Shown here piece after piece: positions 84 to 19,776 of a stretch of 22,960 nucleotides of DNA. The stretch comes from a virus, in the IMG/VR virus record IMGVR_UViG_3300030101_004017, positions 1 to 22,960 of that record. One strand, given 5' to 3'. The notes under the pieces are model-generated. The model worked only from the letters and a program-made list of their open reading frames with translations. It searched no databases and had not been told where the DNA came from. The translations under genes and the position numbers were made by a program. Every line of letters begins with the position of its first letter. Position 1 is the first letter of the stretch.

Positions 84-416
84 CTATTCGCCATTGTTAC
101 TACTGCTTTTATTTCTGTATTCCCAGCCCTCTTTACCGCTTTTAGAATTATGACATGGATGGCACATGGTTTGTAAATTAGACAAATCAGTCTTATGTCC
201 TCCCATGTTTATTGGCTTTATGTGATCCACTACTTGACCAGCTGTCACTTTATTTCTTCTTTCACACGCTTCACATAAAGGATGTTGCTGGATATAATAA
301 TTCCTTATACTCCTCCATTGTTTACTATTATAAAAATCACTGTTTGAATTTATTCTGGCATGCTTTGGCTTTTTTGGAAGCCATGGCCTTTTTTTATTTT
401 CTGGTAACTTAGGCAT
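84..416 (-). CDS. HNH endonuclease
   Basis: This 110-residue protein is a standard phage HNH nuclease: YNSKQWRSIRNYYIQQHP, C48-x2-C51, VVDHIKPINMGG with D64-H65, N80 in LSNLQTMC, and C85-x2-C88-H89-N. In HK97-type cos phages an HNH protein of this sort works with the terminase in cutting genome ends. This one is the last gene of the replication operon, but would sit just upstream of the terminase operon if the molecule is circular. The basic, proline-rich N-terminus likely contacts DNA. Confidence 0.9.
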   Translation of the reverse strand: MPKLPENKKRPWLPKKPKHARINSNSDFYNSKQWRSIRNYYIQQHPLCEACERRNKVTAGQVVDHIKPINMGGHKTDLSNLQTMCHPCHNSKSGKEGWEYRNKSSSNNGE

Positions 417-753
417 TTAATTCAGTTATTAAAAAATAATATTCAGTATCATTTTCTAAAATATATTCTAAATTTTTATGATAACATAATAATTGATCTT
501 TATCTCTACTTTCCCATTTTTCATGGCATCCCTTTCTTTCTCCCATTGATAAACATAAATATTGAATATTTTTTTTATCACAAACTAAATCTATTCTTCT
601 GCTTCTTGGAATAATATGACTATGGCTTAATGGTACATCTCCCTCCATTCTTCCACAACCCTCACAAAAATGCCCTCTTTCCATTGCTATTTCTGCATAA
701 ACTTTATTTAGCTTTCTTTTTATATTTATTTGCTTTTTACTAATTTTTTTCAT
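409..753 (-). CDS. HNH-like Cys/His nuclease family protein
   Basis: This 114-residue protein has a zinc-site and HNH pattern: C30-x2-C33 (CEGCGR), LSHSHIIPRS at 42-51 in place of the usual DHI, N62, C67, and G75-C-H77 followed by KWESR. The 'SHIIPRS...dl......N....C...CH..' order is known in HNH/recombination endonuclease-like proteins of phages. A basic helical N-terminus (KKISKKQINIKRKL) could bind DNA. It immediately precedes a second HNH gene, and the two overlap by 8 bases. Confidence 0.75.
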   Translation of the reverse strand: MKKISKKQINIKRKLNKVYAEIAMERGHFCEGCGRMEGDVPLSHSHIIPRSRRIDLVCDKKNIQYLCLSMGERKGCHEKWESRDKDQLLCYHKNLEYILENDTEYYFLITELNA

Positions 754-830
754 ATTCCCATTAGTATTATTAAAATCATTATTAGAAAAAGCAATAATGG
801 ATAAAGATTTATTTTGTTTAACTTGGCCAT
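750..830 (-). CDS. Tiny hydrophobic peptide of 26 residues
   Basis: The frame encodes MAKLNKINLYPLLLFLIMIL and six more mostly hydrophobic residues, a possible single membrane span with a basic N-terminus. It ends in an ATGA overlap with the HNH-like gene at 753. It is too short to judge by codon use. Together with three similar ORFs it suggests a class of coupled micro-proteins. Confidence 0.42.
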   Translation of the reverse strand: MAKLNKINLYPLLLFLIMILIILMGI

Positions 831-846
831 ATAACTATTATTAAAT

Positions 847-1203
847 TCATATTGATCTGGTTTTATCTTTACTTAAATACTCATCTATTACACTAATTGT
901 TTCAGTAAATCCTCTTGTTATAACTGCAAAATAACCTCTTTCATTCATTGCATTAATCCAATCCTTTTGAGCTTGGGTTGGATAGGCTTTTTCTTTTAAT
1001 TCAATAAATAAACCAAAATAACCTCCTCTGGCTTCATAAATATCTAAATCATTTTTCCCTCTTACATAACCATTTCTTACTATCTTTCTTCTTTGTGCCG
1101 CACTGCTTATATATGCTCCTGCAATTGAGGAGCAATATTTTACTTTTGGATGCTTCAATTTTATATATTGAATTACTGCTGATTGTAGTTTATCTTCACT
1201 CAT
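847..1203 (-). CDS. VRR-NUC domain nuclease
   Basis: This 118-residue protein is the minimal VRR-NUC (PD-(D/E)xK) fold. SEDKLQSAVIQYIKLKHP gives the N-terminal helix with its acidic residue. GKNDLDI contains catalytic D52, GLFIELK contains E68-x-K70, and a downstream Gln lies in TQAQKDWI. A final strand GYFAVITRGF follows. Stand-alone VRR-NUC proteins act as Holliday junction resolvases or structure-specific nucleases, fitting a role in clearing branched DNA before packaging. Confidence 0.87.
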   Translation of the reverse strand: MSEDKLQSAVIQYIKLKHPKVKYCSSIAGAYISSAAQRRKIVRNGYVRGKNDLDIYEARGGYFGLFIELKEKAYPTQAQKDWINAMNERGYFAVITRGFTETISVIDEYLSKDKTRSI

Positions 1204-1573
1204 TTGGCAAATTTATACTAAAATTTTTAGCAGCCCAAATTATAAGCTTATCAACTAAATCTTTAAATTCTTTTTTTGTAAGTTGAGCAGTTGATTTTAA
1301 ATACTCTACTTTTATTCCATCTTCTACTCTTTCTCTTTTTAAAAATTTTAATTTACATATATCATGAAATTCATCTTTTGTGTATCCTAACTCATCTCCC
1401 ATTATTTGCATATATTTCCACCATAACTTATTTTGTTCATTAGTTCTAAAATCTTTATTTTCAATTAAAGTAAATACAATGTCTTTGCCCTCTAATTTAA
1501 CTAAATCTTCAACGAATCTTTCTTCATCTAAAAAATTAATTTTAAGATTTTGTATTTTACCATAATGCTTCAT
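1196..1573 (-). CDS. NinB-like recombination protein
   Basis: This 125-residue protein contains RTNEQNKLWWKYMQIMGDELGYT, shown here to its key R-T-x-E-Q-N and LWW, then KDEFHDICKLKFLKRE and a final STAQLTKKEFKDLVDKLIIWAAKNF. The 'R...QN...W' core is the hallmark of NinB/Orf-type proteins that bind ssDNA and help phage recombination. It lies next to a VRR-NUC nuclease gene, overlapping it by 8 bases, which suggests they act in the same pathway of strand exchange and junction processing. Confidence 0.7.
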   Translation of the reverse strand: MKHYGKIQNLKINFLDEERFVEDLVKLEGKDIVFTLIENKDFRTNEQNKLWWKYMQIMGDELGYTKDEFHDICKLKFLKRERVEDGIKVEYLKSTAQLTKKEFKDLVDKLIIWAAKNFSINLPNE

Positions 1574-1695
1574 AAATTATATTTATTTTTAAAAATATCT
1601 CTCCAATAATTTCTTTGCCTTTTAAGTTTGATTTGTTTCAAGTAAGACAATAATAACAAAAAAGATAATATAATAATAATTATTATTAATATCAT
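1570..1695 (-). CDS. Tiny single-span membrane protein of 41 residues
   Basis: This frame fills the gap between two genes: it starts 2 bases after one stop and ends in an ATGA overlap with the NinB-like gene. Residues 1-18 are almost purely hydrophobic (MILIIIIIILSFLLLLSY), then a basic tail follows (KQIKLKRQRNYWRDIFKNKY). An N-out, C-in membrane anchor with a basic cytosolic tail is predicted. It may alter membrane functions during infection or only couple translation. Confidence 0.55.
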   Translation of the reverse strand: MILIIIIIILSFLLLLSYLKQIKLKRQRNYWRDIFKNKYNL

Positions 1696-1697
1696 TA

Positions 1698-1895
1698 TTA
1701 AGATTGTTTTGTTAATATATTAATTAGCTCTGTATCTGTATAACATGGCCTGGCTCCTTTATACTCATTTGGCATAAATAAAGATTTGATTTCATTTATA
1801 TTATGTTTATGATCATAATAAATTATCCATTTTCTTTTTATACCATATTTATCTTTTACTCCCTCAGTTTTTTTTAATAGTGTTAAAAATTTCAT
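1698..1895 (-). CDS. Hypothetical 65-residue protein
   Basis: This small basic protein (FLTLLKKTEGVKDKYGIKRK, then WIIYYDHKHNINEIKSLF) has no motif I recognise. It starts in an ATGA overlap with the DUF3310-like gene. The following 41-residue membrane ORF begins two bases after its stop. It is probably real because of this tight coupling. Confidence 0.58.
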   Translation of the reverse strand: MKFLTLLKKTEGVKDKYGIKRKWIIYYDHKHNINEIKSLFMPNEYKGARPCYTDTELINILTKQS

Positions 1896-2128
1896 ATGTG
1901 AAAATTTCTTTTTAATTTATTTTCATTTTCTATTTTATCCAATTCAAATTCTAAATGAGCAATAGCTTTTTTAATACAATTTATTGGAGTTTTATGTTTT
2001 CGCTTTGCTCTTAATAAATAACTTACAGCAGTTCCTATATTGTAAGTAAGTTCAAAATCTTCTACTACTTTCCTTGCTTCATATTTATAATGCTTGCCAA
2101 TATAATATTTTGGTATTTTACTCATCAT
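1892..2128 (-). CDS. DUF3310-like protein
   Basis: This 78-residue helical protein matches the DUF3310/SaV-like phage family. KYYIGKHYKYEARKVVEDFE is followed by TYNIGTAVSYLLRAKRK, corresponding to the family's 'gnaiKYllRagkK', and by INCIKKAIAHLEFELDKIE. The family is common in phage early regions and has been linked to nucleotide metabolism, without a settled function. Two adjacent ATG codons (2128 and 2125) are possible starts. Confidence 0.7.
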   Translation of the reverse strand: MMSKIPKYYIGKHYKYEARKVVEDFELTYNIGTAVSYLLRAKRKHKTPINCIKKAIAHLEFELDKIENENKLKRNFHI

Positions 2129-2207
2129 CTATTTCTTTTGTACAAAAATATGCTTCTAACATACATGCAATTAATATTATTAAATAAATTGCTAATGCTA
2201 TTTTCAT
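2118..2207 (-). CDS. Tiny membrane peptide of 29 residues, lipobox-like
   Basis: The frame starts in an ATGA overlap with the preceding stop and ends 11 bases into the next gene. It encodes MKIALAIYLIILIAC followed by an acidic tail ending CTKEIDDE. L-I-A-C fits a lipobox, so it could be a tiny lipoprotein, although the N-terminus has only one Lys. Coupling on both sides makes it a better candidate than a chance ORF. Confidence 0.48.
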   Translation of the reverse strand: MKIALAIYLIILIACMLEAYFCTKEIDDE

Positions 2208-2410
2208 AAGCTTTTTTTTATTAATTTATGTATTTTATCTTGATCAAAATAAGTATTATCATCTCCATAATAAGAAATATAAACTCCATCTTCCTGAATA
2301 TTAAATTGAAGTGTATATTGAACATTTTCAGCATATCCTCTTTCTCCTGGATGCTTTCTTTCTACTATTTTCCCTTTTGGCGTTAAATCAAATGTTATTG
2401 GTAATCTCAT
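2204..2410 (-). CDS. Hypothetical 68-residue protein
   Basis: This small protein looks mostly beta: LPITFDLTPKGKIVERK, then YTLQFNIQEDGVYISYYGDD, with a helical end (QDKIHKLIKKSL). It is not recognised. It ends in an ATGA overlap with a 29-residue membrane ORF. It lies within the DNA metabolism operon, but no function can be assigned. Confidence 0.6.
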   Translation of the reverse strand: MRLPITFDLTPKGKIVERKHPGERGYAENVQYTLQFNIQEDGVYISYYGDDNTYFDQDKIHKLIKKSL

Positions 2411-2475
2411 ATTTTATATGTTATTTTTGGGGGAATCAGTTGTATAATAAATTTCCCTATTCTAAACTTAAACAT
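2407..2475 (-). CDS. Tiny ORF of 22 residues
   Basis: This frame (MFKFRIGKFIIQLIPPKITY plus two residues) starts on the base after the TAG stop of the upstream gene and ends in an ATGA overlap with the gene at 2410. It is basic and amphipathic. It fills a gap exactly, as do three similar ORFs in this operon. It may be a real peptide or only a coupling device that carries ribosomes to the next start. Confidence 0.35.
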   Translation of the reverse strand: MFKFRIGKFIIQLIPPKITYKI

Positions 2476-2835
2476 CTATTCTATTAATTTTTGATTGCTT
2501 AATAAAGCTCTGGTTTTATTATCTATTAAATGTTTTGCTCCATTCCTATCATTATACCATCCCTCCCAAATCATCTTTTTTATTCTATAAAGCCATTTAT
2601 TCATAGTTTTTGCACATAAATGAAACTCCTCTGATTCAAGCACTCCATCATCAAAAGCTTGCTCAACTGCTTGCCAACTAAATTTGGAATATCTCGTTAT
2701 AAGTATTTGGCTTAATCGTTTAGCCAATACAACTTTCTCATCTGCTGGCTTTACTTGCCCAAGATCAACCAAAGTTTTACCGATTAAATGTAAGCACTTA
2801 ATCTCTAAATCCTTTTTATCTATTTGTTTTATCAT
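2476..2835 (-). CDS. Hypothetical helical protein, possible helicase-loading partner
   Basis: This 119-residue alpha-helical protein has no catalytic motif. It carries VLAKRLSQILITRYSKFSWQAVEQAFDDGV and then LCAKTMNKWLYRIKKMIWEGW, a pattern I associate with small proteins beside phage replication initiators, though the function is not established. It is translationally coupled (ATGA) to the initiator-like gene upstream, which supports a shared role. Confidence 0.62.
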   Translation of the reverse strand: MIKQIDKKDLEIKCLHLIGKTLVDLGQVKPADEKVVLAKRLSQILITRYSKFSWQAVEQAFDDGVLESEEFHLCAKTMNKWLYRIKKMIWEGWYNDRNGAKHLIDNKTRALLSNQKLIE

Positions 2836-5353: not shown

Positions 5354-5392
5354 TGTTTTTTAGTTTTAATTAATAGCACAAAGATGAAAAGA

Positions 5393-5412
5393 TTTTTAAC
5401 AATTGCTAAAAA
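5393..5412. promoter_or_regulatory. Near-perfect 20-bp palindrome, possible operator
   Basis: TTTTTAACAATTGCTAAAAA has nine of ten complementary positions around a central CAATTG. It lies downstream of the first -7 candidate and in the spacer/-33 zone of the second, where a repressor or activator dimer could control the early operon. A weak RNA hairpin is an alternative. Confidence 0.5.
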
Positions 5413-5431
5413 CTTAAAGGAAGATTATTAA

Positions 5432-5439
5432 CAAAGTTA
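5432..5439 (-). promoter_or_regulatory. Candidate Bacteroidota-type -7 element of the early promoter
   Basis: The minus strand reads TAACTTTG, a full match to the TAnnTTTG -7 consensus of Bacteroidota primary sigma factors, directly after the terminator U-tract. A matching TTTG/TTG -33 element at the usual distance is not visible. A second weaker candidate, CATCTTTG, lies at 5386-5379, only 25 bases before the ATG at 5353. One of these probably drives the replication operon. Confidence 0.45.
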
Positions 5440-5440
5440 T

Positions 5441-5472
5441 AAACAAAAAGAAAAGCCGCTTAAAAAAGCGAC
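5441..5472 (-). terminator. Intrinsic terminator at the end of the late operon
   Basis: On the minus strand GTCGCTT (5472-5466) pairs with AAGCGGC (5461-5455), with one G-U pair and a TTTT loop, and runs into TTTTCTTTTTG. It lies about 50 bases after the phosphoesterase stop. It separates the late genes from the replication genes. Confidence 0.82.
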
Positions 5473-5524
5473 TAATCTCAACTAAAAAACAAAACAATGT
5501 ATGTATTATGAGATGGCAATTATA

Positions 5525-14295: not shown

Positions 14296-14715
14296 TTAAT
14301 TTGCAACTGGATCAACTTGCCTTAAATCAAAAGTCAATGTTTGTACATAAATACCTCTTCCATCTCCTTCTATTTCAAACTCTTCATCAACGCTATTAAA
14401 TTTTATACTTTGTATTTTTATTCCAGTAGTTGCTGGATAAGTTCCCTTTTTTCTATCCAAAGCAATTCTTACTTTTTGAGCTAAATCAACTGCTGTGCTA
14501 TAATTATCAGCAAAACATAAAACCTCAAAACTATTAGTATCCATTGGGCTAACTCCATCTTTTGTATTAGTTGGTTCAACTGATGTTGTTTGATATACTA
14601 AAAATGGAAAAGCAGTTCCCTGTTTAGCTACATTAGGAAAAATTCTTGTACTAACTAAATTTGATACATCTGTATCATTAGTTAAAACATCATATATTGC
14701 TAAGCCTATTTTCAT
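14296..14715 (-). CDS. Tail terminator-like protein, DUF3168 family
   Basis: This 139-residue protein shows the DUF3168/gp17 layout: GLAIYDVLTNDTDVSNLVSTRIFP, then FPFLVYQTTSVEPTNTKDGVS, then a strand and helix reading FEVLCFADNYSTAVDLAQKVR, and a final strand pair. This family caps the tail tube at the head-proximal end. The gene order (gp10-like, then DUF3168, then tail tube) supports the call. It starts one base after the preceding stop. Confidence 0.83.
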   Translation of the reverse strand: MKIGLAIYDVLTNDTDVSNLVSTRIFPNVAKQGTAFPFLVYQTTSVEPTNTKDGVSPMDTNSFEVLCFADNYSTAVDLAQKVRIALDRKKGTYPATTGIKIQSIKFNSVDEEFEIEGDGRGIYVQTLTFDLRQVDPVAN

Positions 14716-17570: not shown

Positions 17571-18596
17571 TTATTTTCTCTTTTTTAATTCTATCTTTAA
17601 TGCAAGCAGAGATCTTTGCACTAAATCTTTTTCTTGTTTTTTATTTTCCTCTTTTTCTTTATGTAAAGCCAATGATCGTTTAGCTAATGTTAAATCATTA
17701 GCATCTGGATATGCTGGATAAGTTACAGGAGAAACATCATAAAGATTTTTTACTTTATTAATAGTTCTTATTTCTCCATCAGCAGTTGATTCCCAAGAAT
17801 CTTCCTCAATAGTAAATGCAAATGAACTCTGACTTATATCTCCTCTTTCCATTGAAATTACTAAATCTCTACCATAAGTAGTATCTGGCACATCAAATGA
17901 GTATTGTAAGCCCTCAGCAGTTTCTTTTAATTTAAGAGTTCCGCTTGTAGTTCTTGCCAGTAATAAATTTGGATCATGATTAACCAAAGCTCTTACATCA
18001 TCATTTAAAACATTTTCAAAAGCATTTGGAGATATAACTTCTCTAAATCCTCCCAAATCACTTGATAGTTGATTAAATACAGCAGCATGGCCTGTTATAG
18101 TAGTTGTGCCATCTTCTCTTTTTTCAGTTCTGGTTTCAATGTTAAAATATCTTTTTTCCATAGTAATAGTTTTTTCCCATAAATTTTCAACCTTTCTTAT
18201 TAAAGGTTTATTGCGTTCTGTATCATAAAAGGATACATCTTTATTATCTTCATCTTTTATTTCCTCTCTTTTTTCTTCATCTTTATGAGGGCCAAGTGGA
18301 TCAAATGATTCATCTCTTTCATCTTCATTTTCATTTTCAATTTCTTCACTTGCATAAGTAAAAAGAATATTCATTTTATCCCCATCATCTCCCTCAACTT
18401 CAATTATAATTTCTCCATCATTATGCAATTTTTCCATTTCTTCTTTGGTAAAATTCATTGTAAAATCTACCTCATCATTTATTGCATTTTGATAATAATC
18501 TTCATTATCTTTTTCAGCAGCTTCTTGTGAATCATAAACACATGATCCATTTTCTCCCCATTTCCATTTTCCATTATCACATTCCTTAGCTGGCAT
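17571..18596 (-). CDS. Prohead protease with acidic N-terminal extension
   Basis: This predicted HK97/herpes-type serine protease matures the capsid by cutting the scaffold-like delta domain. The protease domain begins near residue 146 (MEKRYFNIETR) and contains GHAAVFN, a candidate catalytic His in ALVNHDPN and the Ser in QSSFAF. This part alone is about 196 residues, the usual family size. The first 145 residues are extra: a small Cys-containing segment (CDNGKWKWGENGSCVYDS), then a very acidic stretch. The chosen start is the ATG at 18596 (341 residues); a TTG lies 9 bases upstream. An in-frame ATG at 18161 could give a free protease form. The C-terminus is a Lys/Glu-rich predicted coiled coil. 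Confidence 0.87.
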   Translation of the reverse strand: MPAKECDNGKWKWGENGSCVYDSQEAAEKDNEDYYQNAINDEVDFTMNFTKEEMEKLHNDGEIIIEVEGDDGDKMNILFTYASEEIENENEDERDESFDPLGPHKDEEKREEIKDEDNKDVSFYDTERNKPLIRKVENLWEKTITMEKRYFNIETRTEKREDGTTTITGHAAVFNQLSSDLGGFREVISPNAFENVLNDDVRALVNHDPNLLLARTTSGTLKLKETAEGLQYSFDVPDTTYGRDLVISMERGDISQSSFAFTIEEDSWESTADGEIRTINKVKNLYDVSPVTYPAYPDANDLTLAKRSLALHKEKEENKKQEKDLVQRSLLALKIELKKRK

Positions 18597-19776
18597 CTTC
18601 TCCAATTTTTTCTATTGTTGTCATATTCATTTGCATAAAATGTTTATCTCCTCCCTCTATTGAGTTAAGATTTTCTTTTTGTCTTACTTCATTAATACTC
18701 ATATATCCATTAGTAATGGCTGTTTTATAAGCTTCGTTTCTACTTTTTACATCTCCTCTTAATAATCCATTTACATTAAATTCTATAAATGTTTTGCCAA
18801 TTTCATTTGTTCTAAATAATTTGTAATTCATTTCATTCTCTATCCTTGTAATATAAGGCATCAATGTATAAGTAACAAATTCCTGACTTTGCATCTCTAT
18901 ATTATTAAAGCTTGATTTGCTTAAATCTTTTAGCATATGAGGAGGGATGTTAAAGATACGAGCCACCTCTTCTATTGAAAATTGGCGGCTTGCTAAAAAT
19001 TGAGCTTGCTCTGGGGATATTGATATTGGAGTAAAACTTAAACCCTCTTCTAATATAATTGTTGAATTACTATTTTTTAATTTAGAATAAGTAGTAGTAA
19101 ATGAATTTTTTAATCTTTCAATTGCTTGCTCACTTAAAGCTCTATCAGTTGAAAGTACTGAACTTGGTTTAGCTCCATTCTTAAAAAATGTATCTCCAAA
19201 TTCTTCTATATTAAGCCCCCAGCTTAATGCTTTTTTACATTGAGATATTGGGCTAATTCCATCTATTCCATTATCAGTTAATGTTTTAAAATGCAAAATA
19301 TCTGATGCATCTAATATACCGCCAGCATTATCAATTTGATAATAAAGCTCTCCATCATTTATTACAACTGTAACATTTTCTGGATTAATTGGAATTAATT
19401 CTATTGGTCTACCACTTCCATCTCTTACTATTTGAACATAACTATTTCCATCAGTACAGATACTCATCATTATATACTCAAAAAAAGTAATTTTATTTTG
19501 GTATTTATTTGGTCTGTATTTTATTAACTCATAAATTTTATTGTTTGGATCTTCTAATTTATCTCCATTAGGCTGTTTAGAATAAACAGAACAAGGTAAT
19601 GATGAAACGCTTTCTGAAAGCAATCTAATTGCACACCATACAGCAGTAAGTGTTAAAGCTTTATCATTGTCTATGGATGAACTATCTGGAAAAACGCTGC
19701 TCAAAGATAAGCCTCTTTTTTCTTTTATTTTTACTTTTCTTGTAAATAAGTTTGTAATAAAATCAGTTAATGCCAA
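18586..19776 (-). CDS. Portal protein, HK97 family
   Basis: This 396-residue protein would form the dodecameric ring at one capsid vertex through which DNA passes. Family features include an early helical segment (ALTLTAVWCAIRLLSESVSSLPC), the KYQNKITFFEYIMMSICTDG stretch, the IDGISPISQCK segment, and the C-terminal EVARIFNIPPHMLKDLSKSSF motif followed by a long helix. The length is close to the usual size. The start is TTG at 19776; the first internal ATG lies far inside the conserved domain. A 14-codon ORF (ATG at 19811) ends across this TTG and may couple translation. The 3' end overlaps the protease gene by 11 bases. Confidence 0.93.
   Translation of the reverse strand: MALTDFITNLFTRKVKIKEKRGLSLSSVFPDSSSIDNDKALTLTAVWCAIRLLSESVSSLPCSVYSKQPNGDKLEDPNNKIYELIKYRPNKYQNKITFFEYIMMSICTDGNSYVQIVRDGSGRPIELIPINPENVTVVINDGELYYQIDNAGGILDASDILHFKTLTDNGIDGISPISQCKKALSWGLNIEEFGDTFFKNGAKPSSVLSTDRALSEQAIERLKNSFTTTYSKLKNSNSTIILEEGLSFTPISISPEQAQFLASRQFSIEEVARIFNIPPHMLKDLSKSSFNNIEMQSQEFVTYTLMPYITRIENEMNYKLFRTNEIGKTFIEFNVNGLLRGDVKSRNEAYKTAITNGYMSINEVRQKENLNSIEGGDKHFMQMNMTTIEKIGEDAS

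Follow-up and report, generated by a model that had tools for sequence, protein, structure and literature searches.

Candidate small protein genes in the early-type operon of a 23-kb virus record and a widespread 22-residue family in three genomic settings

Small frames in the early-type operon

The window analyzed here is the whole record of a marine phage, IMGVR_UViG_3300030101_004017 (22,960 bases, 30% G+C), whose genes lie on the minus strand, with terminase-type genes near 22.9 kb at one end and an HNH endonuclease at the other (Table 1). Within its replication/recombination part are four frames of 26, 41, 29, and 22 amino acids (aa), which a first-pass annotation had located correctly and proposed as unnoticed phage microproteins, with host takeover or superinfection exclusion as suggested roles. 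The sequence comparisons indicate that all four are genuine small protein genes of an early-type operon, coupled to their neighbors by position. The 22-aa member (the 22-mer) belongs to a widespread family of nearly fixed length that occurs in three unrelated genomic settings.

At the 3′ end, all four frames overlap the start of the next gene, by 4 nucleotides (nt) at 753, 1573, and 2410 and by 11 nt at 2128. At the 5′ end, the 22-aa frame abuts the previous stop (2476), the 29-aa frame overlaps it by 4 nt (2204), the 41-aa frame follows it after a 2-nt gap (1698), and the 26-aa frame starts 16 nt after it, in agreement with the earlier count of three starts at or near a previous stop. Such frames had been said to plug every gap, which is correct for gaps longer than 50 nt between 409 and 5353 but not for 5354-5524. 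When each gap was shuffled 2000 times by dinucleotides, an ATG frame of 20 aa or more that bridges it arose with P = 0.111 (26-aa), 0.0075 (41-aa), 0.1475 (29-aa), and 0.0075 (22-aa), giving a joint chance of about 1e-6 if the gaps are independent.

Scans with three neighboring genes recovered six contigs with relatives of the operon, five divergent (L014-L018, 73-86% DNA identity) and one that agrees with the window at every base of the part compared. Among the divergent relatives, the 29-aa frame is intact in 5/5, the 41-aa and 22-aa frames in 4/5 each, and the 26-aa frame in 3/5. L016 is without the 22-aa and 26-aa genes and holds the 41-aa gene as a relic in which TAG interrupts the frame and the start is broken, L015 is without the 26-aa gene, and L014 starts the 22-aa gene with GTG. 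Interrupted frames in related phages, or a hydrophobic span not kept there, had been named beforehand as evidence against the genes. This applies in part, to the relic and the missing frames of L016 and the missing frame of L015, so the genes are individually dispensable but not random. The micro-genes also keep their position while neighbors are lost or inserted: the 68-aa gene is absent from all five divergent relatives, in which the 22-aa gene, where present (four), abuts the 29-aa gene, and a DNA-methyltransferase-like gene (labeled by sequence reading) is inserted in L016 and L017.

The ratio of non-synonymous to synonymous change (pN/pS) was computed with near relatives that had been found through other genes, including both L017 and L018, which are close relatives of one another. 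It was 0.058 for the 22-aa gene (36 synonymous and 8 non-synonymous differences), 0.376 for the 29-aa gene, 0.381 for the 41-aa gene, and 0.573 for the 26-aa gene, with 0.141 for NinB and 0.346 for the 65-aa gene as controls. Off-frame ratios were higher in every case but that of the 26-aa frame, where one off-frame gave 0.431. These ratios point to purifying selection in the coding frame that is clear for the 22-, 29-, and 41-aa genes and weak for the 26-aa gene; since its off-frame value falls below its own, the 26-aa gene rests mainly on the kept pattern of NLYP plus a hydrophobic span. With the frames kept as proteins in relatives and substitution in the expected direction, the proposal of unnoticed microproteins was borne out.

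The neighboring genes are listed in Table 1. The contigs of the window (positions 1-84) and of L013, L014, L016, L017, and L018 stop 28-84 nt past the HNH stop codon; these shared ends suggest a physical, cos-like genome end and a complete genome of ~23 kb.

Table 1. Features of the early-type operon and the tail completion gene of the window
Feature	Coordinates	Strand	Remarks
HNH endonuclease	84-416	-	
HNH-like gene	409-753	-	Weak match
26-aa putative membrane microprotein, NLYP + hydrophobic span	750-830	-	No counterpart in L015, L016
VRR-NUC/Holliday-junction-resolvase-like nuclease	847-1203	-	phrog_5702, 2.7e-13
NinB/Orf-like recombination mediator	1196-1573	-	phrog_72, 9.6e-17; control gene
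41-aa putative membrane microprotein, N-terminal span + basic RNYWRDIF tail	1570-1695	-	Relic with internal TAG in L016
65-aa gene of unknown function	1698-1895	-	Control in substitution test
78-aa early gene	1892-2128	-	Weak PHROG matches named nucleotide kinase
29-aa putative single-span membrane microprotein, conserved C..EAYFCTKE tail	2118-2207	-	
68-aa gene between the 22-aa and 29-aa genes	2204-2410	-	Missing from L014, L015, L016, L017, L018
22-aa microprotein MFKFRIGKFIIQLIPPKITYKI	2407-2475	-	Member of widespread fixed-length family
119-aa gene upstream of the 22-aa gene	2476-2835	-	Relatives in all three phage kinds
Tail completion gene, Pfam Tail_completion_gp17	14296-14715		Window's own terminator

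The 22-residue family and its settings

A scan with five window-type 22-mers as query gave 105 confirmed relatives, 80 of which were examined; in 80/80 the frame has its own start and ends after 22 codons. A degenerate-pattern scan returned at least 119 stretches, and 109 of the 118 matches read are exact 22-codon freestanding frames encoding 50 distinct peptides, most of the others being length variants. Pooled among the matches listed, and with near-identical contigs merged, the family comprises 155 distinct contexts and 85 peptides, with lengths of 22 (138), 29 (7), 21 (6), and 23 (4) residues. The near-invariant core is IQLIPPKI, including a Pro-Pro pair found in most members, and a subfamily carries GFF in place of IPP. 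The 22-mer is single-copy in 15/16 records, and no second copy was found in the window.

Three settings account for all 155 contexts: 132 belong to setting A, with a tail-terminator-like gene (F0) upstream, 18 to setting C, with a hairpin leader, and 5 to setting B, the early operon of the window type. Compared across settings, the 22-mer retains 73-91% identity. BLAST gave almost no relatives in settings A and C for the virion genes of the window, except for a stretch of a prohead-protease-like gene; lysis and early genes are shared. That stretch, among the few virion-gene similarities, is an N-terminal MPAKECDNGKWKWGE segment (gene at 17571-18605) common to the window and to setting-A and setting-C records.

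For setting A, F0 loci were collected independently of the peptide (alignment A8, 20 sequences), and the best 80 of at least 546 were examined. An adjoining 22-mer member at E <= 1e-4 was present in 75 of the 78 testable loci (two contigs end too soon), as scored by a 22-mer profile that includes three GFF-subfamily seeds from those same loci. The exceptions are L274, with a member at 0.11, and L280 (5.7) and L281 (none), which carry other small frames. A simple script scored the 80 loci as 60 exact, 11 variant, 7 absent, and 2 untestable. The AlphaFold2 model of F0 (mean predicted local distance difference test [pLDDT] 75) had tail terminators as its top Foldseek matches (E 7.5e-5 to ~1e-3), including the P74-26 neck, T5 p142, the R-pyocin collar, and lambda gpU. 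In L271, L273, L275, and L276, the 22-mer that follows F0 bears a Cys-rich C-terminal extension, CNCNxKAACxRC.

In setting C the 22-mer gene stands alone, on the strand opposite to its flanking genes. The element TACCTTTG, which fits TAnnTTTG, an element of Bacteroidota promoters, lies 67-85 nt upstream of the gene in 10/10 setting-C loci examined. Between the two is a hairpin of 17 pairs, with 91.5% of alignment cells paired and three pairs changed on both sides; slid controls gave no such pairs, and shuffles matched their number in 57/500, so the evidence from covariation is moderate. The hairpin occurs once in each of 8/8 setting-C records searched and in 0/6 others. Its loop, TCATATC, is invariant (L072:3915-3990, L061:3932-3997, and 13 other loci; alignment A9), and Rfam returned no match in L072, L061, L114, or the window.

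Membrane microproteins

The best 17-residue Kyte-Doolittle means of the 26-, 41-, and 29-aa frames are 2.86, 3.38, and 2.62, i.e., one strong span each, as the first-pass annotation had read from the window, and the span is kept in relatives. Their products are, on this sequence evidence, putative single-span membrane microproteins without previous annotation. Coupling and hydrophobicity had together been held to exceed chance, which stands for the bridging frames; hydrophobicity alone is weaker evidence, for the three spans surpass most chance frames in the window, but AT-rich DNA yields many mildly hydrophobic frames. Among the window's other 20-45 aa frames, means of at least 1.6 were reached by 41/140 on the plus and 12/57 on the minus strand, and of at least 2.4 by 6/140 and 2/57, where the minus-strand set of 57 may include a few real genes. 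The 22-aa frame, with a best mean of 0.75 and a net charge of +5, has no such span, and the idea of one uniform hydrophobic series gave way to that of a separate family of soluble, beta-type peptides.

The 29-aa family keeps an invariant Cys in six sequences and the motif EAYFCTKE. Its LIAC had been described as lipobox-like, but the position preceding the Cys holds A, A, A, L, I, and I across the six sequences; the small residue of a lipobox is not kept, and the lipoprotein reading was rejected. A profile search of collected loci placed relatives in early operons of both other settings: L144 and L146 in setting A, L136 and L155 in setting C. The two setting-A genes are coupled on both sides, beginning at the previous stop or shortly past it and overlapping the start of the next gene, and the two setting-C genes overlap at their own start only. 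In L144 the gene comes after a relative of a replication-region gene. At L014:5425-5616 the 29-aa microprotein is fused in frame to a Cys-rich tail that looks zinc-ribbon-like by eye.

Additional observations concern a fifth membrane microprotein (42-50 aa), encoded just before NinB in L014, L016 (6336-6461), L017 (6703-6846), and L018 and not in the window; it has relatives in L026 (3395) and L027 (1177) and a short frame only in L015.

Comparison with known families gave weak matches. The 41-aa frame resembles phrog_1367 (unknown function) at E 0.0043. The MgtS-like protein (Pfam PF22865) shares ~30 residues and one span with the 29-aa frame (E 0.029), but its 14.7 bits stay below the cut-off of 27 and the conserved EAYFCTKE tail is left unexplained. 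Most likely, the membrane microproteins would be located in the inner membrane and would alter either the envelope of the host or the state of infection. The 29-aa membrane protein offers a second marker beside the 22-mer.

Predicted fold, candidate partner, and known relatives of the 22-mer

AlphaFold2 modeling of a 34-residue family member (45 aligned sequences) predicted strands at residues 2-6, 9-14, and 17-22, with pLDDT of ~85-87 over residues 1-20. From this model, the 22-mer may fold as a three-stranded antiparallel beta sheet with turns at G7-K8 and P15-P16.

Overall, the best explanation is that the four frames are small protein genes and that the 22-mer is a freestanding protein which probably acts on a host partner; we give it a probability of about one half. 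A host component is our tentative choice for that partner, at slightly short of even odds, and is favored because the 22-mer keeps 73-91% identity across phages that have scarcely any recognizable similarity in their tail and head proteins. Most likely, the flat cationic beta surface of the 22-mer would bind a conserved component of shared hosts, probably marine Bacteroidota. A more daring extension, doubtful in our estimate, would rank the 22-mer with the smallest freestanding folded proteins in nature. As an autonomous three-stranded sheet, it would be traded among phages of one host group, a self-contained weapon or tool housed in the late tail module of some, in the early operon of others, or apart from both under a promoter and hairpin leader of its own. 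A role in regulation is improbable, and the remaining weight goes to other uses.

The main rival, also tentative and less probable than a host partner, takes the 22-mer for a virion or tail-assembly part, i.e., a detached beta module docking on the tail terminator or neck. Several results weigh toward it and against a host-directed protein. Its late-module place directly behind the tail-terminator-like gene in 132/155 contexts, with stop and start nearly always overlapping, suits a tail role better than host takeover, and F0 resembles tail terminators of the PDB in its model. The 22-mer also stays beside F0 though the following gene changes, and is kept behind it in L279 after an inserted gene. 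For the setting-C tail protein, a distant relationship to F0 is possible (hhalign E 3e-4, probability 40%). The preferred reading is further weakened by its own evidence: the model is of the 34-residue relative rather than of the window's 22-mer, the 22-aa gene is missing from L016 (a partial record), and the 26-aa ratio is weak, with a lower off-frame. In the F0-selected set, pN/pS is only 0.34-0.46 (off-frames 0.80 and 1.45), a weaker signal than among relatives of the window, as the set mixes subfamilies; requiring Ile at position 11 left 55/60 sequences (37 distinct) in this set, and the choice of starts favored length 22. In the peptide-selected set it is 0.205, a value biased by the search. 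As an observation on the setting-C tail protein, L312:2581-3759 (-) and L314:10346-12265 (-) encode forms with an N-terminus that may be terminator-like, followed by a long extension at the C-terminus.

Against a tail part, the F0 profile is found in 4/4 setting-A records but in 0/12 window-type and setting-C records, so the family is not always linked to F0. The window's own terminator belongs to another sequence family, its tail completion gene giving no match to A8, and no virion protein that is shared comes near the 22-mer in conservation.

Under either choice of partner the 22-mer is a freestanding protein gene, and it would act as such rather than as a leader for the next gene. That the frames are leader or relay frames passing ribosomes onward, as the first-pass annotation had also offered, or arrest peptides, is accordingly quite unlikely in any form: stop/start overlaps at most junctions and the Pro-Pro pair of most 22-mers would suit it, but the GFF subfamily is without that pair and the same coupled downstream gene does not recur. 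A pure leader or relay was rejected on peptide conservation in the coding frame, on changing downstream neighbors, and on setting C, where the neighbors lie on the other strand and none is coupled. We give as little credence to a cationic lysis or outer-membrane-disrupting peptide like the disruptins. The charge of +5, the late module of setting A, and the apparently Gram-negative hosts agree with it, but the near-invariant core, the early operon of the window, and a predicted beta sheet rather than a helix do not. Chance open frames in AT-rich DNA are hardly credible, as the per-gap P values are not tiny for the 26-aa and 29-aa frames but all four frames are conserved in divergent relatives and the 22-aa and 29-aa frames also family-wide.

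The 22-mer family had no match in Pfam or the PDB and only weak ones in PHROGs, and Foldseek with its model gave no match below E 3. The closest, phrog_28541 (unknown function, 67 positions), weakly matches 4/45 members (best E 0.02) and is three times as long. In cultured phages, tblastn with two peptides and one tail-terminator-like protein found no match, and a one-motif script found no such peptide in 25.2 of the 35.7 kb of Nonlabens phage P12024S, the nearest cultured relative by terminase (61%). Among 84,980 bacterial genomes there was one match, on L116 (PAPR01000004.1), a phage-like contig of 28.5% GC in a metagenome-assembled genome labeled Pseudooceanicola, and probably a stray phage contig. 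The peptide strings did not occur in the 5.39 million papers searched for them.

Fremin et al. 2022 reportedly also worked on phage small proteins. Those described in the parts consulted of a review (PMC11323111) are likewise short, unannotated, and under protein-level selection, and no family with a fixed length of 22 residues and three genomic settings was found in those parts. Global small-protein catalogues, as far as the sections consulted tell, predict frames as short as the 22-mer gene (PMC11364881) and may hold the family unnamed. Well over a hundred contigs of marine phages carry the family, yet it is nameless in the libraries searched, because standard gene callers usually skip frames so short. 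With its length fixed at 22 residues in all three settings, the protein is a compact, testable example of how much so small a protein can achieve, and a core so nearly invariant should ease pull-down of the partner. Betanova, a designed three-stranded sheet of ~20 residues, has the same topology as predicted here and the same size; the 22-mer differs in being natural and in having a sheet that is predicted only.

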